A stretch of 64,000 nucleotides of DNA. It comes from Bacillota bacterium (GTDB lineage Bacteria > Bacillota > Clostridia > Saccharofermentanales > Fastidiosipilaceae). The notes under the pieces are model-generated. The model saw nothing but the letters and a program-made list of their open reading frames with translations. It did no database searches and was not told where the DNA came from. The position numbers and the translations under genes are program-made. This document shows positions 11,159-56,413 of the stretch, one piece after another (the stretch's first letter is position 1; every line of letters begins with the position of its first letter). The stretch is taken from contig JASGUU010000044.1 in the NCBI GenBank assembly GCA_030057555.1, positions 124,001 to 188,000 of the forward strand. Direction: 5' to 3'.

Positions 11159-13546
11159 TCATTCACCCTTGAGGGGCAGTGCCTCGATCTTCCAGATGTC
11201 ACGGACGTAGTCCTGGACGGTGCGATCCGAGCTGAAGCGTCCGCTCGAAGTAATGTTGATCCAGCATTTGCGCGCCCGGCCCAGACGGTCACGGTAGTCC
11301 TCGGCCATGCGGTCACGGACTTTGCGATAGTCGTCGAAGTCACCGAGCACATAGTAGGTGTCCGGAGGCTGCCAGGAGGACCCGGTCAGCAGGCTGGCAA
11401 CGAGGTCATTGAACATGCTCGAGCCATGGTCGGAGAGCAGGCCGTGGGTCAGCGCATCGACGACGCGCTTGAGGCCGGGAATGTGGTTGTACTGCCAGTT
11501 GGGGTTGTAGTAGGCGCGGGTGGCGGGCAGATCCTCGACGCGGACGCCGAAGATGTAGGCGTTTTCGAAGCCGACCTCTTCGACGATCTCGACGTTCGCA
11601 CCGTCATAGGTGCCGAGCGTCAGGGCGCCGTTCATCATCAGCTTCATGTTGCCGGTTCCGGAGGCCTCCATGCCCGCCGTGGAGATCTGCTGCGAGATGT
11701 CGGCGGCCGGGATGATGCGCTCGGCGTTGGAGACATTGTAGTTGGGGACGAAGACAACCTTCATCTTGTCACCGATCTCGGGATCGTTATTGACCAGTTT
11801 GGCGATCTCGTTGATGGCCTTGATCACGGCCTTCGCACGCATGTAGCCGGGTGCGGCTTTGGCACCAAAAATGAAGACGCGCGGCACGACATCGAGCGTC
11901 GGATCGTCCTTGATCCGGAAATAGAGGTCGAGGATGTAGAAGGCATTCAGGATCTGGCGCTTGTACTCGTGCAGGCGCTTGATCTGAACATCGAAGATCG
12001 CTTCGGGGTTGATCCTGATCCCCATGTTCTCCTCGACCCAGTCGGCGAAGGCGCGCTTGTTATGGTCCTTGATCTCGAGGCAGCGCCTGAGGATCGCCTC
12101 GTCGTCGGCGAGCGGCTTCAGGGTGGCAAGCTGGTCGAGATCGGTCACCCATTCCTCCGAACCCGTCAGCTCCGTGATCAGTCCGGCGAGCTTGGGATTG
12201 CAGACGCGGAGCCAGCGGCGCGGCGTCACGCCGTTGGTTTTGTTGCTGAAGCGCTCAGGCCAGATTTCATACCAGTCACGCAGGGTGTCGCGCTTGATGA
12301 TGTCCGTGTGCAGTGCCGCCACACCGTTAATCGACATCGCGGCATAGCAGGCCATCCAGGCCATCCGCACCTGTCCCGACCCGATCGGCGCCATGTAGTC
12401 GATGCGGTCCTGGCGCAGGCCCCGGCGCGACATTTCATCACGGAAACGGCGGTCGATCCACTGGACGATTTCGAGAATACGCGGGAAGAGGAACTGGAAG
12501 ATCGAGAGGTCCCAGCGCTCCAGAGCCTCGGCGAGGATGGTGTGGTTGGTATAGGCAAAGCACTGTGTCGTCACCGCCCAGGCCTGGTCCATGGACATGC
12601 CGTTCTCGTCGACCAGAATGCGCATCAGCTCCGGAATCGCAATGACCGGGTGGGTGTCGTTCAGCTGGAAGACGTTGTACTCCGCGAAGCGCGAGAGATC
12701 ATCGCCATGCATTTCCTTGAAATTGCGGATGACGAGCTTCAGCGTGGCGGAGACGAAGAAATACTGCTGCCGCACCCTGAGCACCTTCCCGTCATAGGAG
12801 GTGTCGTTGGGATAGAGCACCCGCCAGATGTCCTCGACGCGGTTGCGCTGTGTCACCGCATCGTCGAAGCGCTGCGAGTTGAACAGGTTGAAGTCGAAAT
12901 CTTCGGCAGGATCCGCACGCCAGAGCCGGAGCGTGTTGACATTATCCGTTCCATAGCCGGTGATGGGCATGTCAAAGGGCGTGGCGAAGACCGTCATGTC
13001 GGAATAGTAGACCGGTACCTTGAGGTCGTCGCGGCGGACGAGGAAGGGATAGCCGTCCTCCATCCAGCTGTCCGGATGCTCCTTCTGGAAGCCGTTGTCG
13101 AAGGTCTGCTTAAACAGGCCGTAGCGATAGAGCAGGCCGTAGCCCATGACGGGATAGTTCATGGACGCAGCACTGTCGAGGAAGCAGGCCGCCAGGCGAC
13201 CGAGGCCGCCGTTGCCGAGTCCCGCGTCATACTCCTCTTCTAGAATGACATCGAGATCGCGGCCGTATTCCGCCATCACTTCCTTTACCGTGTCATAGAG
13301 ATCCAGATTGATGAGATTGTTGAGCGTTGCCCGGCCCATCAGAAACTCGGCGGAGAGATAATGCTGCGTGCGCACAGGGCGATAAAGCTCACGGGTCTTT
13401 TCCCAGTTTTCGGCGATCGCCTCCACGATAACATCCGAGAGGGCCGTCCAGTAGCTGCGGTTCGTCGCATGCTCCGGCATGCGGCCGGCCTCGGCACGGA
13501 TATGCGATTCAAGCGAGCGGCGAATATTTTCTTTGGTTACGTACAT
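11159..13546 (-). CDS. glgP: glycogen/alpha-glucan phosphorylase
   Basis: The enzyme releases glucose-1-phosphate from alpha-1,4-glucans using inorganic phosphate and pyridoxal phosphate; the product is handled by pgm. The 795-residue length is typical. The active-site segment EASGTGNMKLMMNGALT (near 630, with the PLP lysine) and the glycine loop EYDAGLGNGGLGRLAACF (near 105) are intact, as are YSAEFLMGR (near 63) and KRLHEYKRQ (near 525). GAGGTG precedes the ATG at 13546, and a TATAAT on the minus strand at 13588-13583 suggests the promoter. No other glycogen genes are adjacent, so storage glycogen versus maltodextrin as substrate is open. Confidence 0.96.
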   Translation of the reverse strand: MYVTKENIRRSLESHIRAEAGRMPEHATNRSYWTALSDVIVEAIAENWEKTRELYRPVRTQHYLSAEFLMGRATLNNLINLDLYDTVKEVMAEYGRDLDVILEEEYDAGLGNGGLGRLAACFLDSAASMNYPVMGYGLLYRYGLFKQTFDNGFQKEHPDSWMEDGYPFLVRRDDLKVPVYYSDMTVFATPFDMPITGYGTDNVNTLRLWRADPAEDFDFNLFNSQRFDDAVTQRNRVEDIWRVLYPNDTSYDGKVLRVRQQYFFVSATLKLVIRNFKEMHGDDLSRFAEYNVFQLNDTHPVIAIPELMRILVDENGMSMDQAWAVTTQCFAYTNHTILAEALERWDLSIFQFLFPRILEIVQWIDRRFRDEMSRRGLRQDRIDYMAPIGSGQVRMAWMACYAAMSINGVAALHTDIIKRDTLRDWYEIWPERFSNKTNGVTPRRWLRVCNPKLAGLITELTGSEEWVTDLDQLATLKPLADDEAILRRCLEIKDHNKRAFADWVEENMGIRINPEAIFDVQIKRLHEYKRQILNAFYILDLYFRIKDDPTLDVVPRVFIFGAKAAPGYMRAKAVIKAINEIAKLVNNDPEIGDKMKVVFVPNYNVSNAERIIPAADISQQISTAGMEASGTGNMKLMMNGALTLGTYDGANVEIVEEVGFENAYIFGVRVEDLPATRAYYNPNWQYNHIPGLKRVVDALTHGLLSDHGSSMFNDLVASLLTGSSWQPPDTYYVLGDFDDYRKVRDRMAEDYRDRLGRARKCWINITSSGRFSSDRTVQDYVRDIWKIEALPLKGE

Positions 13547-13925
13547 GGATTCACCTCATAGTCGTTGAAGAAACTAGGAACGATTATACCTGAAGCATCC
13601 GCCACCTCTACCGTATCGTGTGAAAAAGTACGCAAATAAGGGCTTTCGCCAGTTTGCCCGTCCATTTCAGGCAGCAAAACCAGTCGCCGCTTTACCGATA
13701 GGCCAGGCGGCTGAAAGGGAATGCGCGGGAGCCTGCTCTGCTGCTGCCGAAATGAGCCGTGTAGTAGTGGCTCATGGTACGCTCGTTACCGGTAACAGGG
13801 GTCTGCAGGCGAATGCCATCTGTTCGTCGTCCAGCAGAAAGGGGGCCCGTCAGGAATATCGGGAAGCTTGTGAGCATGCCTGGAGCACGGGTGGCAGGGG
13901 GAGAAAGCAGCTTGCGAACTTCTGA
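13547..13925. other. non-coding spacer upstream of glgP
   Basis: This contains the glgP leader and putative -10 (13583-13588). No coding signal, RNA gene or clear hairpin is recognised in the rest. It leads directly into the 71-bp repeat array. Confidence 0.4.
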
Positions 13926-14270
13926 TGGTCAAAACGAGGAGTAATCCAAATAGTGTTTTGGAAAACTCGCCATCCTGACCACAAAAGGGCGGTTTCTGGT
14001 CAAAACGAAGAGTAATCCAAAAAAAGATTTGGAAAACTCGCCATCCTGACCACAAGGGGCCGTTTCTGGTCAAAACGAGGAGTAATCCAAAAAAAGATTT
14101 GGAAAACTCGCCATCTTGACCACGAAGGGGCCATTTCTGGTCAAAACGAAGAGTAATCCAAAAAAAGATTTGGATTACTCGCTATCTTGACCACAAAGGG
14201 GCCATTTCTGGTCAAAACGAAGAGTAATCCAAAAAAAGATTTGGATTACTCGCTATCTTGACCACAAAGA
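13926..14270. repeat. five tandem copies of a 71-bp palindromic repeat, locus 1
   Basis: Unit starts are at 13926, 13997, 14067, 14138 and 14209, a 70-71 bp period. Each unit is a 56-bp imperfect palindrome plus a conserved 15-bp linker (ACAAAGGGGCCATTT-like). The outer arms are TGGTCAA and TTGACCA. The inner arms are GAGTAATCCAAA and TTTGGATTACTC around an A-rich loop, separated from the outer arms by an unpaired 5-6 nt segment. Units 1-3 carry GGAAAACTC in the right inner arm, giving a symmetric two-base mismatch; units 4-5 are perfectly paired. The same family, in the opposite orientation, occurs at 55974-56130. The array is A+T-richer than its surroundings. It encodes no protein and shows no T-run typical of terminators. 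Confidence 0.95.
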
Positions 14271-14596
14271 GGTGCGCGCTGCGTAACGACACGCCGCTAG
14301 ACGGGATTGCTTGAAGCTTACGGCATCAGAGCAACAGAACCTGGATTACTTTACAGCCTCCTTGAAAGTGCCAGGTCATGCCTGTCATCCTCGTCGCTCG
14401 CTATCCTATTCCTCTCACATTCACATTCCGGCCGTTTGTGAGGCTGGCCGCTACGCGGGCAATCGGAGAAGTGATCTTCCACATGCCTGCACGCAAGCTG
14501 CGCAGGCACTTCGGTGTTTCAGGTATTTAGGAAGGCTCGTAAAAGGTTTTGCTCGTCCCGACTGGTAAGACGTCCATCCGCCGCGGAAAAAAGCTC
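14271..14596. other. non-coding spacer between repeat array and tRNA promoter
   Basis: No gene, RNA or repeat unit is recognised. A short GGATTACT string at about 14343 echoes the core of the adjacent 71-bp repeat, but without the rest of the unit. Confidence 0.35.
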
Positions 14597-15012: not shown

Positions 15013-15289
15013 AGACGCCAAAGCGTTGATCGAGACGAGTAGAGCTGTTGTCGCCGCACAGAGAGTCGGGATGCTGGGAAACGATCGGCTGACAGTGGAT
15101 TCGAATGGACTCGGGAGCCTGCTGCCGAAGACCTCCGGTTTGTAAGCAGCGGCGGATTAACCGCCCGTTACCAGCGGTTATCGTATGTTGGTACGATGCT
15201 GAGCGGATCGCCGTGGCGATCAATTTGGGTGGCACCGCAGGAGAAGCATGCACTCCTGTCCCTTATAACCGGGACAGGAGTGTTTTTTT
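15013..15289 (+). promoter_or_regulatory. T-box riboswitch, tryptophan-specific
   Basis: The leader carries the invariant T-box AATTTGGGTGGCACCGC (15222-15238), the GAGTAGAGCTG/AGAGAGTCGGGATGCTGGGA elements of stem I, and a terminator hairpin at 15251-15289. The likely specifier codon is TGG (Trp) at 15106-15108 in the context GAATGGAC. The T-box variable base in TGGCACC is C, which pairs with discriminator G73 of tRNA-Trp, an independent match to the specifier. Uncharged tRNA-Trp is expected to stabilise the antiterminator and turn on trpXYZ, which starts 117 bp downstream. T-box control of trpXYZ transporters is established in other Firmicutes. Confidence 0.93.
15251..15289 (+). terminator. 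T-box attenuator terminator
   Basis: CACTCCTGTCCC (15251-15262) pairs perfectly with GGGACAGGAGTG (15271-15282) over an 8-nt loop, followed by seven T. It is the regulated terminator of the T-box leader. Confidence 0.95.
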
Positions 15290-15405: not shown

Positions 15406-16512
15406 ATGAAACGGAAGATTCGTTATGGCAGACTGCCGCAGTTTGCCCGTGCACTCGCACTCGCGCTCACGGCCTCTCTCCTGCTCGCGTCCTGCCAGCA
15501 GACAGCTGCGACGACCACCACACAGGAGAAAAGCAGCACAGATTCCGCTGCCACCACTGCCGCAGGCAAAAACACGGAAAACACGGAAAGCAAGGCCGCA
15601 CCCGCCGACGACGAAGTGAAGCGCATCGGCGTGGTCCAGTTCGCTCAGCACGCCTCGCTCGACAACTGCTATTACGGCCTGCTCGAGGGGCTGAAGGAAC
15701 ACGGCTACGTCGAAGGGGAAAATCTCGAAGTCGACTACCAGAACGCCAATGCCGATGGCGGACTCAACAACACCATCTGCCAGAACTTCGTCAGCCGTGG
15801 CTACGACCTCATCGTCGGCATCGCGACCCCGTCGGCGATGGCGGCCTACAACGCCGCCCGTGATGAGGACATCCCGGTGGTCTTCTCGGCGGTCACCGAT
15901 CCCATTGAGGCCCAGCTGCAGAACGCCGACGGCACAAATGTCAAGGGCGTCACCGGAACCAGTGACGTTCTGCCAATCGACGAGCAGCTGCAGATGATCC
16001 GCGCCTTCCAGCCCGACGCGAAAACACTCGGCATCCTCTACAGCACCAGCGAGACCAGCTCCATCGCCTCGGTCCGTCTCTATGAGGAGAAGGCCGCTGC
16101 TCACGGCTTCACGCTGGTTGCCGAGGGTGTCAGCGAATCCGCCAACGTCCCCGCTGCGGCGCTGAAAATCGTGAACGAAGTCGATGCCCTCACCAACATT
16201 CTCGATAACATGATCGTCCAGAACATGCCCGTCATCGTGGAGCGCGCCAAAGAAGCCGGCCTCCCCTACTACGGTTCCGAGGAAGAACAGGTCGCCCGCG
16301 GCTGCCTCGCCACCCAGGGGCTCGACTACCTCGCCCTGGGAGCCCAGACCGGCGCCATGGCCGCCAGGATCCTCAATGGCGAGGCCGCCGAGAGCATCCC
16401 GATCAGCCAGATTGAAAAGGCCAGCGGCTTCTACAACAGCACCGTGATGGCGGAACTCGGCCTCGAATTGCCGGCGGACTTCGCCGACATGAAGGATCTC
16501 GCGAAACCCTGA
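15406..16512 (+). CDS. trpX: tryptophan ABC transporter, substrate-binding lipoprotein
   Basis: This 368-residue lipoprotein of the ABC_sub_bind family (PF04392) has a signal peptide ending in the lipobox LLLASC with Cys30 as lipidation site. A Ser/Thr/Ala/Lys-rich linker (31-70) precedes the two-lobed periplasmic-binding fold beginning at RIGVVQFAQHASLDN. The GGAGGAAG site lies 5-6 bp before the ATG. It is the first gene of trpXYZ, and the Trp-specific T-box upstream is the main argument for tryptophan as ligand, since the protein family also includes other aromatic-compound binders. It would sit on the outer face of the cytoplasmic membrane. Confidence 0.9.
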   Translation: MKRKIRYGRLPQFARALALALTASLLLASCQQTAATTTTQEKSSTDSAATTAAGKNTENTESKAAPADDEVKRIGVVQFAQHASLDNCYYGLLEGLKEHGYVEGENLEVDYQNANADGGLNNTICQNFVSRGYDLIVGIATPSAMAAYNAARDEDIPVVFSAVTDPIEAQLQNADGTNVKGVTGTSDVLPIDEQLQMIRAFQPDAKTLGILYSTSETSSIASVRLYEEKAAAHGFTLVAEGVSESANVPAAALKIVNEVDALTNILDNMIVQNMPVIVERAKEAGLPYYGSEEEQVARGCLATQGLDYLALGAQTGAMAARILNGEAAESIPISQIEKASGFYNSTVMAELGLELPADFADMKDLAKP

Positions 16513-36863: not shown

Positions 36864-39800
36864 TTATTTCACGGATATGTTAACCGCACTTGTTACCACT
36901 GTCCCGCTCGCGTCTTTGATCGCAACACAGACTTGATAGGCATCCGATGTCGTAGGTATCCAGCTGAAAGTGTTACCTGGCGCATAATCGCGCAGGATCA
37001 CCCTGGCCCCATTGGAGTGAACAACATAGAACTGATACTGATACGGCGCTGAGCCCCCTTCTCCTCTGGCTGCCAGCGCTATTGTTTCGCCTGTTGTGTA
37101 TTCCGGCTTGGTACCTGCCCGGAAGACTGCAACCTCCAACGTCTCAACCAGTGGATTAACTGTAACGGTCTTTTCCTGATTGACAGTCTGCCCGGCAGCG
37201 TCCTTAATATTTACACCTGCAAGGTACGTATCAGGAGTCCTGGGCGTCCAGTTGAAAGTGTTACTAAGCGCATAATCGCGCAGGATCACCCTGGCCCCAT
37301 TGGAGCGAATAACATAGAACTGATACTGATACGGCGCTGTGCCTCCTTCTCCTCTGGCTGCCATAGCTACTGTTTCGCCTGCCGTGTATTCCGACTTGGT
37401 ACCTGTCCGGAAGACTGCAACCTCAAGCGTCTCAACCAGTGGATTAACTGTAACAGTCTTTTCCTGATTGACAGTCTGCCCGGCAGCGTCCTTAATATTT
37501 ACACCTACCTGGTACGTATCAGGAGTCCTGGGGGTCCAGTTGTAAGTGTTACCAAGCGCATAATCGCGCAGGATCACCCTGGCCTCATTTGAGCGAATAA
37601 CATAGAACTGATACTGATACGGCGCTGTGCCCCCTTCTCCTCTGGCTGCCAGAGCTACTGTTTCGCCTGCCGTGTATTCCGACTTGGTACCTGCCCGGAA
37701 GACTGCAACCTCAAGCGTCTCAACCAGTGGCTGATTAACTGTAACGGTCTTTTCCTGATTGACAGTCTGTCCGGCGGCGTCTTCAACATTAACACCTACC
37801 TGGTACGTATCAGGAGTCCTGGGAGTCCAGTTGTAAGTGTTGCCAAGCGCATAATCGCGCAGGATTACCCTCGCCCCATTGGAGCGAACAACATAGAACT
37901 GATACTGATACGGCGCTGTGCCCCCTTCTCCTCTGGCTGCCAGCGCTATTGTTTCGCCTGCCGTGTATTCCGACTTGGTACCTGCCCGGAAGACTGCAAC
38001 CTCAAGCGTCTCAACCAGAGGCTGATTAACTGTAACGGTCTTCTCCTGATTGACAGTCTGCCCGGCGGCGTCTTCAACATTAACACCTACCTGGTACGTA
38101 TCAGGAGTCCCAGGCGTCCAGTTGTAAGTGTTACCAAGCTCATAATCGCGCAGGATCACCCTGGCCCCATTGGAGCGAACAACATAGAACTGATAGCGAT
38201 AGGGTGCCTCGCCGCCCTCAGCTCGTGCAGCCAGCGCTATTGTTTCGCCTGCCGTGTATTCCGACTTGGTACCTGCCCGGAAGACTGCAATGGAACACGG
38301 ATTGACCGGCCCCTCCAGCACGATGGTTCGCTCTTCTGTGACGACCTCACCCTCGGAATTCCTAACTCTGACGCCTACAGTGTATGTGTCTGGTGTGTAG
38401 GGTTTCCACGAGAAGCTGTTCGCCTCATCGTAGCTTCTGATGGTAAACGTGTTTCCATTGGAGCGAATGCCGTAGAACTCGTATTCAAACGCCTCACCAC
38501 CAAAAGCATCGGCCTCCAGCTCGATCGTGTCGCCCTGAACATATACAGAATTGTCTGCCGGCTGGAAATACATGATTTCCAGCGGATACGCGACCCAGAT
38601 CGCAGTAAGTACAGTATCCTCATTCACGACGAAATTTGAGTAAAGCGGATACTCTACGCCTGATGTCTCCTCCCGCCAGCCGGAAAGAATATACCCTCCT
38701 CTTGCGACGTAGTACGGATCTGGAGTCCAATAATTGAACCCAGGCGGAAGCTGATACGTCATCGGAACTTCCCCCCACCAGTACCCGCCGGCCAGATCAA
38801 TGGATACTGTGACAGGCTCTCCCCAGATTGCTGTGAAAAGCATGTCTTCATAAACATCAGTGCTTTGTCCAGGCGAATATTCTACGTTTGAAGCATCCAG
38901 CCAGCCGTAAAGGACATAGCCCTCTTTTAAAGCTCTGTCCCACCACGGCAGGGTAAATCCTTGCCCCGGCGCAACCTGTTTTGTCATGTCACCATATGTC
39001 CATTCCCCGCCGGCCAGATCATAAGATACGGTGACAGGCTCTACCCAAATCGCGGTGAAAAGTATGTCTTCATGAACTTCAATCGAATCGTAAGGCTGAT
39101 GATCTATGCCATAACTGTCTCTCCAAACGCTAAGTACATAACCCTCTTTTGCAATCGAATCCCGGAAAGGTATCGTGTATTCAGATCCTTTGGGCAAATC
39201 TATCGCTTTAGAGCCATACACCCATTCCCCGCCGGCTAGATCAAAAGATACGGTGACAGACTCTACCCAAATCGCGGTGAAAAGCATGTCTTCATGAACT
39301 TCAATCCATTGGCCAGGCGAATATTCTTCGTTTGAAGCATCCAGCCAGCCGGAAAAGAAATACCCTTCTCTTCTAACCCTGTCTTCATCTGGCAGCCAAA
39401 TCTCTGCCCCCTGCGCATGCTGACCTGTGTGATCAGAATATGTCCATTCTCCACCGGCCAGATCAAAAGATACGGTGACAGCTTCTACCCAGATCGCGGT
39501 GAAAAGCATGTCTTCATGGACGTCAATCCATTGGCCAGGCGAATATTCTTCGTTTGAAGCATCCAGCCAGCCAGAAAGGATATACCCCTCTCTTCTAACG
39601 GTGCCTTTACCTGGCAGCCAAAATTCTGCCCCCAGCGCAAGCTGCTCTGTGTAATTATAATCTGTCCATTCTCCACCTGCCAGATCAAAAGATACGGTGA
39701 CAGGTTCTACCCAGATCGCGGTGAAAAGCATGTCTTCATGAACTTCAATCCATTGGCCAGGCGAATATTCTACGTTTGAAGCATCCAGCCAACCGGAAAG

Positions 39801-41903
39801 GACATAGCCCTCTTTTGAAACTCCGTCCCTACCTGGCAGGGAGTAGTCTCCTTTTGCAATAACAGTTGTCAGGTCCTCATAGATCCATTCGCCACCGACC
39901 AGATCAAAAGATACGGTGACAGGTTCTACCCAGATCGCGGTGAAAAGCATGTCTTCATTAACTCGAATCCCTTTGCCAGGCGAATATATCTCGTTCGAAG
40001 CATCCAGCCAGCCGGAAAGGATGTACCCCTCTCTTCTAACGGCGTATTCAGATGGCAGAAGCCAATTTGCCCCCGGCGCAAACTGCTCTGTCATGTCACC
40101 ATATGTCCATTCCCCGCCGGCCAGATCAAAAGATACGGTGACAGGTTCTACCCAGATCGCGGTGAAAAGCATGTCTTCATGAACTTCAATTCTTTCGCCA
40201 GGCGAATATATCTCGTTTGAAGCATCCAGCCAGCCGGAAATGATGTACCCCTCTCTTCTAACGTCGGATTTAGATGGCAGCCAATACTCTGCTCCCGGCG
40301 CAAGCTGCTCTGACTGATCACCATAATCTGGATTCCATTCCCCGCCGGCCAGATTATAAGATATGGTGACAGGTTCTACCCAAATCGCGGTGAAAAGCAT
40401 GTCTTCATGAACTTCAATCCATTGGCCAGGCCAATACATCTCGTTAGAAGCATCCAGCCAGCCGGAAATGATGTACCCCTCTCTTCTAACCCTGGATTCA
40501 TATGGCAGCTGATACTCTTCTCCCGGCGCAACCTGCTCTGTCCAGTCACCACCTGTCCATTCTCCACCGGCCAGATCAAAAGATACGGTGACAGGTTCTA
40601 CCCAGATCGCGGTGAAAAGCATGTCTTCATGAACTTCAATCACTTGGCCAGGCGAATATATCTCGTTCGAAGCATCCAGCCAGCCGGAAAGGATATACCC
40701 CTCTCTTCTAACGTAGGATTTATATGGCAGCTGATAATATGCTCCCGGCGCAAACTGCTCTGTCTCGTCACCAAATATCCATTCCCCACCTGCCAGATCA
40801 AAAGATACGGTGACAGCTTCTACCCAGATAGCGGTGAAAAGCATGTCTTCATGAACTTCAATCGATTGGCCAGGCGAATATATCTCGTTCGAAGCATCCA
40901 GCCAGCCGGAAATGACATACCCCTCTCTTCTAACGTCGGATTTTGATGGCAGCCAAAATTCTGCCCCCAGCGCATGCTGCCCTGTGTGATCATAATATGT
41001 CCATTCTCCGCCGGCCAGATCAAAAGATACGGTGACAGGTTCTACCCAGATCGCCGTAAAAACAACATCCTCATACACGTCGACCCCTTCATAAGGCTGA
41101 TACTCTACGCCATAGCTGTCTCGCCAAGCGCGAAGTGCATAGCCCTCTTTTGAAACAGCGTACCTACCAGGCAGAAAAACGCATTGTCCGGGCAGCACAG
41201 AAATCGTCGGGTTGTAATCAGGATCCCAAACTCCTCCAGCAGTGTCATATGTAATCGTGACAGATTCTGTATTGTTAGCGGTACGTATAGCATTCTCATT
41301 CACTGCAATACTTTCGCCGGGCTGATACTCTGTTTCCGTGTTATCGGCCAAACTGTCCGGCGAATAAGCTTCTCTGTGGTCGCTTTCGGCATCCTCGAGG
41401 CAGTTTACGGAACCCTCGAAAAGCTCACCGGACGGATCTCCAGTCTCCGGGTTTAATTCGCCACCGTATCCATCAAAGCTTGGGGCTGCATCGTTCTCCG
41501 CTTGGGGCTCCGACTGACTTTCAGAAGGATATGCTGTATCAGTCGGCTCCGGCTCTGTTGGAGCAGGCTCCTCTGTCTGCTCAATCGTCTCGGTGCTTTC
41601 TAATACTGGTATGCTTTCCGTCGGTTCAAATGACGGTGTTTCCGAGCATCCGGATTCAACAGGCATGTTCTCGGCAATGCCATGAGTGCCTGCTTCGTCA
41701 ACAGACACGACATCAGAAATCGGGGATTCAATTGCTTCCTGAGAGTCTGGCTCCCCCCAAGTTTCCCCGGAAATGTCATCATTCACAGCAGGCCTTTCAA
41801 AGGCTCTCACTTCCGCACCTGCACCATGCACGGTCAAGTTGCCGACCAGTACAGCCAGTACTAGCAGACAAGCAGTTGTCTTTTTCAACATAATCCTCTT
41901 CAT
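36864..41903 (-). CDS. large secreted protein with 12 InlB-type B repeats and 6 Ig-like YYY-type repeats
   Basis: This 1,679-residue predicted exoprotein starts at an ATG with GAGGGG 6-7 bp upstream and has a signal peptide (about 1-30, hydrophobic core ACLLVLAVLVGNLTV). An acidic Ser/Thr/Pro/Glu-rich stalk (about 40-210) precedes twelve 72-75-residue repeats of the Listeria-Bacteroides/InlB B-repeat type (VTVSFDLAGGEW ... REGY.LSGWLDASN ... VHEDMLFTAIW). Six repeats of about 94 residues follow (AVFRAGTKSEYTAGET ... PYQYQFYVV ... NTYNWTP-TPDTYQVGV), resembling triple-tyrosine/Ig-like domains. The protein ends NISVK with no LPXTG, SLH or membrane anchor, so attachment is unclear. The DNA is A+T-richer than the core genome. 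Decayed copies of one transposase flank it. Adhesion is a reasonable guess only. Confidence 0.88.
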   Translation of the reverse strand: MKRIMLKKTTACLLVLAVLVGNLTVHGAGAEVRAFERPAVNDDISGETWGEPDSQEAIESPISDVVSVDEAGTHGIAENMPVESGCSETPSFEPTESIPVLESTETIEQTEEPAPTEPEPTDTAYPSESQSEPQAENDAAPSFDGYGGELNPETGDPSGELFEGSVNCLEDAESDHREAYSPDSLADNTETEYQPGESIAVNENAIRTANNTESVTITYDTAGGVWDPDYNPTISVLPGQCVFLPGRYAVSKEGYALRAWRDSYGVEYQPYEGVDVYEDVVFTAIWVEPVTVSFDLAGGEWTYYDHTGQHALGAEFWLPSKSDVRREGYVISGWLDASNEIYSPGQSIEVHEDMLFTAIWVEAVTVSFDLAGGEWIFGDETEQFAPGAYYQLPYKSYVRREGYILSGWLDASNEIYSPGQVIEVHEDMLFTAIWVEPVTVSFDLAGGEWTGGDWTEQVAPGEEYQLPYESRVRREGYIISGWLDASNEMYWPGQWIEVHEDMLFTAIWVEPVTISYNLAGGEWNPDYGDQSEQLAPGAEYWLPSKSDVRREGYIISGWLDASNEIYSPGERIEVHEDMLFTAIWVEPVTVSFDLAGGEWTYGDMTEQFAPGANWLLPSEYAVRREGYILSGWLDASNEIYSPGKGIRVNEDMLFTAIWVEPVTVSFDLVGGEWIYEDLTTVIAKGDYSLPGRDGVSKEGYVLSGWLDASNVEYSPGQWIEVHEDMLFTAIWVEPVTVSFDLAGGEWTDYNYTEQLALGAEFWLPGKGTVRREGYILSGWLDASNEEYSPGQWIDVHEDMLFTAIWVEAVTVSFDLAGGEWTYSDHTGQHAQGAEIWLPDEDRVRREGYFFSGWLDASNEEYSPGQWIEVHEDMLFTAIWVESVTVSFDLAGGEWVYGSKAIDLPKGSEYTIPFRDSIAKEGYVLSVWRDSYGIDHQPYDSIEVHEDILFTAIWVEPVTVSYDLAGGEWTYGDMTKQVAPGQGFTLPWWDRALKEGYVLYGWLDASNVEYSPGQSTDVYEDMLFTAIWGEPVTVSIDLAGGYWWGEVPMTYQLPPGFNYWTPDPYYVARGGYILSGWREETSGVEYPLYSNFVVNEDTVLTAIWVAYPLEIMYFQPADNSVYVQGDTIELEADAFGGEAFEYEFYGIRSNGNTFTIRSYDEANSFSWKPYTPDTYTVGVRVRNSEGEVVTEERTIVLEGPVNPCSIAVFRAGTKSEYTAGETIALAARAEGGEAPYRYQFYVVRSNGARVILRDYELGNTYNWTPGTPDTYQVGVNVEDAAGQTVNQEKTVTVNQPLVETLEVAVFRAGTKSEYTAGETIALAARGEGGTAPYQYQFYVVRSNGARVILRDYALGNTYNWTPRTPDTYQVGVNVEDAAGQTVNQEKTVTVNQPLVETLEVAVFRAGTKSEYTAGETVALAARGEGGTAPYQYQFYVIRSNEARVILRDYALGNTYNWTPRTPDTYQVGVNIKDAAGQTVNQEKTVTVNPLVETLEVAVFRTGTKSEYTAGETVAMAARGEGGTAPYQYQFYVIRSNGARVILRDYALSNTFNWTPRTPDTYLAGVNIKDAAGQTVNQEKTVTVNPLVETLEVAVFRAGTKPEYTTGETIALAARGEGGSAPYQYQFYVVHSNGARVILRDYAPGNTFSWIPTTSDAYQVCVAIKDASGTVVTSAVNISVK
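36867..38580 (-). repeat. six tandem ~285-bp in-frame repeats (Ig/YYY-like)
   Basis: These repeats encode the C-terminal 570 residues of the large exoprotein. Copies 2-5 are nearly identical at the DNA level (for example TTCCTGATTGACAGTCTG recurs in each), so recent duplication or gene conversion is likely. The first copy is the most diverged. Confidence 0.85.
38580..41261 (-). repeat. twelve tandem ~220-bp in-frame repeats (B-repeat)
   Basis: Each encodes one InlB-type B repeat. The stretch coding for EVHEDMLFTAIWVEPVTVSFDLAGG is almost invariant, while the central part of each unit varies, a pattern of recombination between copies combined with divergence of exposed loops. Copies 1, 10 and 12 (RDSYG or REETSG instead of LDASN) are older variants at the ends. 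Confidence 0.85.
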
Positions 41904-41947
41904 ACAGTTCCCCTCTCTGAATCCCTTCATGTCCTCATGGATGCATA

Positions 41948-54570: not shown

Positions 54571-55920
54571 ATGATTGTATGTAAATTCGGAGGCAGTTCA
54601 CTGGCCAGTGCGGATCAGATCCGCAAGGTCTGCGATATCGTTCTGCAGGATCGCCGCCGACATATCGTAGTCGCTTCCGCGCCGGGGAAGCGTCATGATT
54701 CCGATATCAAGGTCACAGACCTGCTGATTTCTTATGCCAATGCCGTGCTCTCCGGCTATGAGGGTGCGCAGGAGCGCGGAGCCATCTGCTCGCGCTTTGC
54801 CGGCATCGCGGAGGAGCTGGAACTCGAGCGCGACTGGTACAGCTTCGTCAGCGATGATCTTGATCGGAGAATCAGGCTCTATGGCGGCGACAGCCAGGAT
54901 CTCACCCATGCGCTGAAGGCGGCGGGCGAGGACTGCTGCGCCCGCCTGCTGGCCGACTACCTGCAGGCGCTCGGCGAGGATGCCGAATATGTCGATCCAC
55001 TCGAAGCCGGCATGCTGCTGCGTCTGGAGAACGGCCAGACCCTGGTCGAGGAGGAAAGCTACGAGCGGCTCGCCCAGCTGCGCCGCAGACACAGCATCGT
55101 GGTCTTCCCCGGTTTCTTCGGAGGTGACAGATCCGGCCGTGTGCGCACGTTCTCGCGCGGCGGTTCCGACATCAGCGGTGCCATTCTGGCCGCCGCCATC
55201 AAGGCGGAGGTTTATGAGAACTGGACCGATGTCGACGGCGTCTATGTCGTTCATCCGAGTCTCGTACGCGATCCCGAGGGCGTGCGCGAGATCACCTATA
55301 CCGAGATGCGCGAGCTCGCCTATGCCGGCTTCACCGTCCTGCATGAGGAAGCCATCAGTCCGACACAGCTGCGCGGCATACCAGTCAACATTCGCAATAC
55401 CAATAACCCCTCTTCACCGGGTACCAGAATCGTTTCGGTGCGTGACAACTACGACAGCATCGTGACCGGTATCGCCGGCTCGAAGGGCTTCACGCTGCTC
55501 CATCTATCGAAACATCTGATGAACCGCGAGGTTGGCTTCGCGATGCGTGTGCTCAGCATTCTCGCCGACCTCTCCATCCCCTTTGAGCACATGCCCTCAG
55601 GCATCGACTCGCTCTCGATCGTGATCCGTTCCCACAATATTCCCGCAGAGAAGGAAGCGATTGTCGTCCATCGTCTGCGTACCGAACTGGGCGTTGATCA
55701 GGTGTCGGTCAACCGTCAGATCGGCATCGTCATGATCGTTGGTGAAGCCATGGCTCAGACGGTCGGCGTGACGGCCCGGGCGGCCACGGCACTCAGCCGG
55801 GCGGGTGTCAACCTCGAGTTGATCATCCAGGGCGCATCGGAAATCTCGGTGATCTTTGGTGTGCGTGAGGCCTTCGTCAACTACGCGGTCAAGGAGCTGT
55901 ACAAGGAGTTCTTTTCCTGA
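54571..55920 (+). CDS. lysC: aspartate kinase
   Basis: The enzyme phosphorylates aspartate, the entry to lysine, threonine, methionine and diaminopimelate synthesis. The 449-residue protein has VCKFGGSSLA (3-12), the GFFGG and TFSRGGSDISGA substrate loops (near 185-205) and NWTDVDGVYVVHPSLV (near 217). Two C-terminal ACT domains (about 300-449) imply allosteric control by end products. It is monocistronic and transcribed away from yqeG; the second 71-bp repeat locus follows 53 bp after its stop. Confidence 0.94.
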   Translation: MIVCKFGGSSLASADQIRKVCDIVLQDRRRHIVVASAPGKRHDSDIKVTDLLISYANAVLSGYEGAQERGAICSRFAGIAEELELERDWYSFVSDDLDRRIRLYGGDSQDLTHALKAAGEDCCARLLADYLQALGEDAEYVDPLEAGMLLRLENGQTLVEEESYERLAQLRRRHSIVVFPGFFGGDRSGRVRTFSRGGSDISGAILAAAIKAEVYENWTDVDGVYVVHPSLVRDPEGVREITYTEMRELAYAGFTVLHEEAISPTQLRGIPVNIRNTNNPSSPGTRIVSVRDNYDSIVTGIAGSKGFTLLHLSKHLMNREVGFAMRVLSILADLSIPFEHMPSGIDSLSIVIRSHNIPAEKEAIVVHRLRTELGVDQVSVNRQIGIVMIVGEAMAQTVGVTARAATALSRAGVNLELIIQGASEISVIFGVREAFVNYAVKELYKEFFS

Positions 55921-55973
55921 TATCAACTGCCGATGATCCTGACACCACAATGGCTGACGAATGCCGGGCGTTC

Positions 55974-56130
55974 TGGCCAGGATAGCGAGTTTTCCAAATG
56001 GAAATTTGGATTACTCCCCGTCTTGACCATTTCAGGCCCTTTTCTGGTCAGGATAGCGAGTTTTCCAAATGGAAATTTGGATTACTCCTCGTCTTGACCA
56101 TTTCAGGCCCTTTTCTGGTCAGGACGTCCC
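55974..56130. repeat. 71-bp palindromic repeat, locus 2 (two copies plus a partial third)
   Basis: Units start at 55974, 56045 and 56116 (the last is truncated after about 12 bp), a 71-bp period. Outer arms are TGGTCA and TTGACCA; inner arms GAGTTTTCCAAA and TTTGGATTACTC around a 6-nt loop, with a two-base symmetric mismatch. The linker TTTCAGGCCCTTTTC is the reverse complement relative of the locus 1 linker, so locus 2 is inverted with respect to 13926-14270. The repeat lies between lysC and the deacetylase-like gene, both of which end towards it. Confidence 0.93.
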
Positions 56131-56413
56131 GTATCAGCTTTGCCGCAACCCGACAGCTGTCTGTCAATCGGTGAAGCGGCGTCTGTTGCAGAAAGAGCCG
56201 TTGAGCTTACTTCAATTTATACACGCATAAACGTGTACATCTTGAAAAATTAAGCCGAAACCTCCACTCGCAGCGATTTGCTCAAAACCTCGTCTTATAC
56301 GCAGTGAACAGGTGCACCACAAGCCGTTTTTTCGCTGCTCATGGCATACTCTACCCTGGTAGCAATGCGCTGTTCTGCTGCCCAACTGGGTCCCGGGTAT
56401 CTCACATCCGCGC
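56131..56413. other. non-coding spacer after repeat locus 2
   Basis: No gene is recognised. A small inverted repeat TACACG (56220-56225) / CGTGTA (56232-56237) followed on the minus strand by TAAATT lies about 175 bp past the stop of the minus-strand gene; it is too weak to call a terminator. Confidence 0.35.

Follow-up and report, generated by a model that had tools for sequence, protein, structure and literature searches.

A tandem array of 56-bp palindromes behind a lysC-like gene and the dispersed repeat family to which it belongs

Introduction

Two tandem arrays of imperfect palindromes are found in the window, a 64-kb stretch of a 2.9-Mb, 90-contig MAG (G000, here the own genome). One of them (locus 2) follows a lysC-like gene and the other (locus 1) lies near glgP. 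The sequence-only reading had taken the two as one family, dispersed and amplified in tandem at each place by an active or recent spreading mechanism. What kind of element is the lysC-side array, and could it have reached its present position by the same route as the glgP-side array? To address this question, the two loci were compared with each other, with the other clusters of the family in the own genome and with related genomes.

Results

The two arrays of the window

Tandem-repeat detection at the lysC locus reported copies at 55971-56124 with a period of 71 (97%), and the two full copies and truncated third described earlier from the letters were recovered as 56-bp units (Table 1). The array sits between convergent ORFs. 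The domains of the neighbouring genes agree with the lysC and glgP identities given before, and no job for the gene neighbouring locus 2 is indicated. A scan with Rfam gave no family on either array. When 55 catalogued clusters were compared, no flank of locus 2 was found in common with locus 1 or with any other cluster, and no MITE flank or terminal repeats were found around the array. The possibility that both loci are remnants of a single duplicated segment with shared flanking DNA thus fails. Part of a different dispersed repeat lies beside the array; its further weak matches are of 67-77% identity, several of its copies have 190-470 bp in common with each other, and one copy (L222) adjoins d-type palindromes.

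Table 1. Features of the two loci and nested copies of the carrier element. Coordinates are those of the window; in the last line they follow the name of the locus.
Feature	Coordinates	Strand	Remarks
glgP gene	11159-13546	(-)	Carbohydrate phosphorylase domain
MITE holding first array	13841..14579	(+)	decayed terminal inverted repeats at 13841-13864 and 14556-14579
First array (locus 1), five palindromes	13926..14264	(+)	starts 13926, 13997, 14067, 14138, 14209
MITE right part, about 310 bp	14265..14579	(+)	common to some 30 copies; no conserved reading frame
lysC-like gene	54571..55920	(+)	AA_kinase and ACT domains; ends 53 bp before locus-2 array
Array at lysC locus (locus 2)	55974-56124		two complete units (56-bp imperfect palindromes, step 71 bp), then 9 bp of a third
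Unit 1, 56-bp imperfect palindrome	55974..56029	(-)	strand from arm polarity
15-bp linker TTTCAGGCCCTTTTC	56030..56044	no strand	differs from MITE-array linker
Unit 2, 56-bp imperfect palindrome	56045..56100	(-)	
15-bp linker, second copy	56101..56115	no strand	
Truncated third unit, first 9 bp	56116..56124	(-)	
Part of a different dispersed repeat	56183..56374	(+)	8 further weak matches in genome
Convergent ORF, 652 aa	56414..58372	(-)	no Pfam match
Nested MITE copies	L048 12725-13257, L075 3696-4296, L077 3708-4426, L148 536-971, L150 511-1047		

The glgP-side array stands in front of tRNA genes, 380 bp upstream of glgP. Its five units follow each other at steps of 71, 70, 71 and 71 bp. A T-box leader (15017-15266) is located upstream of a gene for an ABC-type substrate-binding protein (15406-16512). 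Elsewhere in the window, a 1688-aa ORF (36864-41930) contains two long tandem-repeat blocks of 291 bp x 4.6 and 222 bp x 10.3.

Orientation was assessed with a position model built from 86 MITE-array 71-mers. In reverse orientation the two full locus-2 units scored 62.3 and 73.2 bits, in direct orientation 37.1 and 40.3 bits, and 44-49 of 56 positions matched the locus-1 units when reverse-complemented, as against 38-40 in direct orientation. Arm polarity at locus 2 is therefore inverted, and the reverse orientation of the lysC array relative to the glgP array holds for the arm letters. The linker behaved differently: its 15 bases scored -14.9 bits in one orientation and -16.2 in the other and thus differ from the linker of the MITE arrays. 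What the two loci share is the arms and not, as had been thought, the linker as well.

The repeat family in the own genome

A profile search of the window and of the stretches around matches gave 173 units in 55 clusters, a catalogue that is not exhaustive, since clusters on contigs C4, C5, C8, C11 and C14 surfaced only in later pattern searches. Nearly all units stand at 71-bp steps, head to tail and with a single polarity per cluster. Exact clamp-clamp junctions (158 forward and 172 reverse, most of them seen on both strands) include clusters outside this list. A MITE flank is present on at least one side of 44 of the 55 clusters; the remaining 11, the lysC locus among them, are free clusters in the sense that no flank is shared at depth 3 or more. 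One core type, the a-type, occurs both free and as MITE cargo.

According to a rough gene call by coding potential, no cluster is inside a predicted gene. The flanking genes are co-directional at 19 clusters, divergent at 13 and convergent at 11, with 12 at contig edges, and these classes match the background of the other gaps in the same stretches (76 co-directional, 34 divergent, 33 convergent). Thus the 55 clusters show no bias towards gene ends relative to other gaps, including the 3' ends favoured by intrinsic terminators, and that identity was rejected. A CRISPR identity was also rejected: the 15-bp linkers are near-identical within clusters and are not unique spacers.

Units are more alike within than between clusters. 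The mean within-cluster identity of the MITE clusters was 0.898, compared to 0.868 after units had been permuted between clusters (500 permutations, maximum 0.880), and exact identity was seen in 6 of 150 pairs from the same cluster and in 8 of 6990 pairs from different clusters. These results support dispersal together with local tandem growth, as the sequence-only reading had proposed.

The carrier of the MITE-borne clusters

The carrier is a gene-less MITE with an internal palindrome array. It is 0.4-0.75 kb in size, with about 85 bp to the left and 310 bp to the right of an array in which 1 to 7 units were seen, and many copies have inverted terminal repeats at both ends. The termini are of the form GGGTGCACGTCA-N4-TGTCGGGA, where GGGTGCACGTCA is a 12-bp terminal repeat; this pattern has 68 matches in the own genome and 64 in the sister species, and none was obtained with the reversed-pattern controls. 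In the right part, stops occur in all six frames of 30 sequences, with at most 3 of 30 open per frame. Flanking repeats of 7-9 bp were found at five independent sites (L040, L084, L144, L152 and one nested site common to L048, L075, L077, L148 and L150), and at none of the ends of the window copy or of most listed pairs. At the nested site, the MITE occupies one and the same position CAAAATGG within another element, whose ends are TACACGTCCGGCACCC...GGGTGCCGGACGTGTA, and the composite of the two appears to have multiplied.

No autonomous transposase for the MITE was found: the longest end pair in the lists of terminal inverted repeats is 1.8 kb (sister species, contig C41), and Pfam matched neither the two ORFs inside it nor two that overlap or flank it. 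Of the 55 clusters, 44 can be explained by the MITE route, whose present activity is unproven. A spreading mechanism is thus borne out for locus 1 and 43 other MITE-flanked clusters and not for locus 2. The description of the spread as active or recent found no backing, since the window MITE has decayed ends and no flanking duplication, and no transposase partner was found.

Unit frame, symmetry and folding

Each unit forms an imperfect dyad of 56 bp, in which an outer clamp TGGnCA...TGnCCA, an inner dyad and a 6-base centre can be distinguished. A zone near positions 8-13 is partly mismatched, and it is partly unpaired in every well-sampled core type. Among palindromes assigned to a core type, on which the length, step and per-type pairing counts are based, 380 of the 399 units (six core types) are 56 bp long, and the steps are 71 bp (a, b, c), 70 bp (d) or 60-61 bp (f, g).

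A sample of 58 units (at most 9 for each core type and genome) aligns gap-free in 56 columns. Because only units with the clamp and some inner symmetry had been selected for it, the sample leans towards the dyad; neither the constant length nor the mismatched zones are favoured by this choice. In this sample 86.3% of dyad cells are paired, compared to 68.6% in shuffles. Cells changed on both sides number 172 against 63.8 in shuffles, counts that represent about six families and not 58 independent units, so that the shuffle control overstates independence; one-sided changes of the G-U type number 9. RNA folding of the units is better than that of shuffles (z -2.1 to -5.4). The arms of the a-type units of the own genome were examined further in the 147 of 173 units that are exactly 56 bases. 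At positions 17-19 the two arms vary independently of each other (agreement in 36 of 147, with 43.8 expected) but stay A/T. Since these positions vary independently, two separately read half-sites fit better than one RNA stem. The unit probably serves as a two-fold symmetric DNA site, within repeats that are otherwise selfish.

Exact half-sites with no following T at the mirror position number 8 in the own genome and 2 in the sister species, and several of them are truncated or slightly mutated array units. Among these half-sites, inspected in part, no transposon was recognised that would indicate a half-site-bounded insertion sequence.

The sister species and wider taxa

The sample of relatives contains one other genome of the genus, that of the sister species (G001). 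Both the MITE and a diverged form of the unit are present there, as are at least four further core sequences; 372,683 bases of its genome, not chosen for arrays, contain 69 units in 33 clusters. Its lysC orthologue is 94% identical, and the gap behind that gene holds, in place of the a-type, an array with a 70-bp step and the core GAGTTGTGTCAG; no clean empty site was alignable at this gap. In the glgP-tRNA gap of the sister species a MITE remnant in opposite orientation is present with one decayed unit. The a-type arrays as they stand are therefore not shared by both species at either window locus.

Other orthologous gaps are filled in both species, sometimes with different cores. Palindrome clusters of the arbitrary G001 sample lie in the same gaps as loci A01, A02 and A08, and clusters occur on both G001 contigs matching locus A29; the sequence matching the free-cluster loci A24 and A35 has no cluster. 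Because cluster density is high in the sister sample, chance co-occupancy may account for these shared gaps. At one further locus (L050, on contig C34 of the own genome), the two flanks match different G001 contigs, C67 (L131) and C87 (L106/L112), both with nearby clusters; the arrangement possibly reflects rearrangement at clusters, or else a binning or assembly effect.

Outside the genus, the unit was absent at E 1e-4 from 36 further genomes of the family and order, and a TGGTCA tandem pattern was seen only in the own genome among a class sample of 391 genomes that does not include the sister species. The clamp-clamp pattern was found in 3 of 12 family genomes, namely the own genome, the sister species and G004, which belongs to another genus. 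G004 has 4 clamp-clamp matches, two of which overlap but lie on opposite strands, and 56-bp frames TGGACAA...TTGTCCA at 71-72-bp steps with weakly symmetric cores. The phages and plasmids searched gave no match, and viral contigs gave none for the LysC query or the unit pattern. No description of the repeat was found in the literature covered, which excludes most subscription journals.

Discussion

The nearest known kind is that of REP/BIME-like extragenic palindromes, with the GTAG/RAYT hallmarks missing. The family resembles REP and BIME elements in being made of high-copy intergenic palindromes that are clustered and lineage-specific, with several sequence types per genome. It differs from them in unit length (56 bp as against 20-40 bp) and in its head-to-tail order with a constant step of 71 or 60-61 bp, and many of its arrays lie inside a MITE. 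REPs and BIMEs have been described largely from lineages with RAYT transposases, and BIMEs are bound by gyrase, IHF or Pol I. GTAG REPs and REPtrons are defined, in PMC3733652, by a GTAG/CGTC end tag and a RAYT gene. Measured against that definition the identity was rejected, as the listed unit ends have no GTAG or CGTC tag and the own genome has no Y1_Tnp match. The locus-1 carrier is MITE-like in its inverted terminal repeats, its size, its lack of genes and its dispersal, and the 7-9 bp flanking repeats of some copies may be target-site duplications. It departs from MITEs in that it contains an array of palindromes whose number differs from copy to copy, and locus 2 lies outside any MITE.

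At a probability of roughly 0.6, we regard locus 2 as a small free-standing cluster of a REP/BIME-like extragenic palindrome family of the genus. Slippage or unequal recombination would lengthen and shorten clusters, and the MITE would be moved in trans by a transposase that was not found. Free clusters such as locus 2 may have arrived by a non-MITE route or may have lost their MITE, and the dyad may be kept because some factor reads two-fold symmetric DNA. Against this stand the failure to find a unit-reading protein or a MITE transposase, the fact that the MITE does not explain locus 2, and the orthologous gaps with different-core arrays, which could mean conserved site function and not neutral turnover.

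A rival is that the clusters are selected chromosomal sites for a gyrase- or nucleoid-type protein, as has been proposed for BIMEs, bound as one dimer per dyad with successive dyads in helical phase. The 60-61-bp and 70-71-bp steps differ by about one DNA turn, the half-sites keep A/T at positions 17-19 while varying independently, and the gaps of A01, A02, A08 and A29 are occupied in the sister species too. However, cores differ between clusters and species, so that a single protein of fixed specificity would not read all units; chance occupancy is high, and A24 and A35 have no counterpart. We consider such selected sites possible but doubtful. It is unlikely that the units act as RNA hairpins, either terminators or mRNA stabilisers of adjacent genes. 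Although they fold better than shuffles and the inner pairs are kept through two-sided changes, the gene-orientation classes equal background, one-sided changes are few, positions 17-19 of the a-type do not covary and Rfam gave no match.

Mobilisation as REPs by a RAYT (Y1) transposase would suit high-copy extragenic palindromes in clusters, and the sister genome has one disrupted Y1_Tnp match, a transposase gene with four internal stops (G001:C163:17297-17530). The missing Y1_Tnp match in the own genome, the untagged 56-bp units and the head-to-tail clusters of one polarity make this very improbable. Less credible still is a guide array of the TIGR stem-loop kind. TIGR stem-loop arrays consist, according to PMC12045711, of tandem palindromic units with TG and CCA motifs, and the present units likewise begin with TG and end with CCA. 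By that same description the identity was rejected: the linkers, of 15 or 4-5 bases, are alike within clusters and not paired variable spacers of 8-12 nt, and none of 3 genomes has a Nop-domain protein over the cut-off (best E 0.125, with a model that could miss a diverged Tas protein). The family is moreover dispersed over dozens of loci with no adjacent effector.

Besides the preferred reading of locus 2 as a free-standing cluster of a REP/BIME-like family, a broader one is conceivable at long odds. The 56-bp frame could be a modular element, with a fixed clamp and length and exchangeable cores; the core would set specificity (partner protein, recombination partner or target), a common factor would recognise the clamp, and core exchange would rewrite clusters where they stand. 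Such a reading covers at least six core types in the genus and the same-length frame, with weakly symmetric cores, in G004. The family offers a concrete case for asking what preserves the geometry of a palindrome once its sequence is free to vary: the core differs from cluster to cluster and from species to species, yet the length of the unit and its spacing stay fixed to the base.
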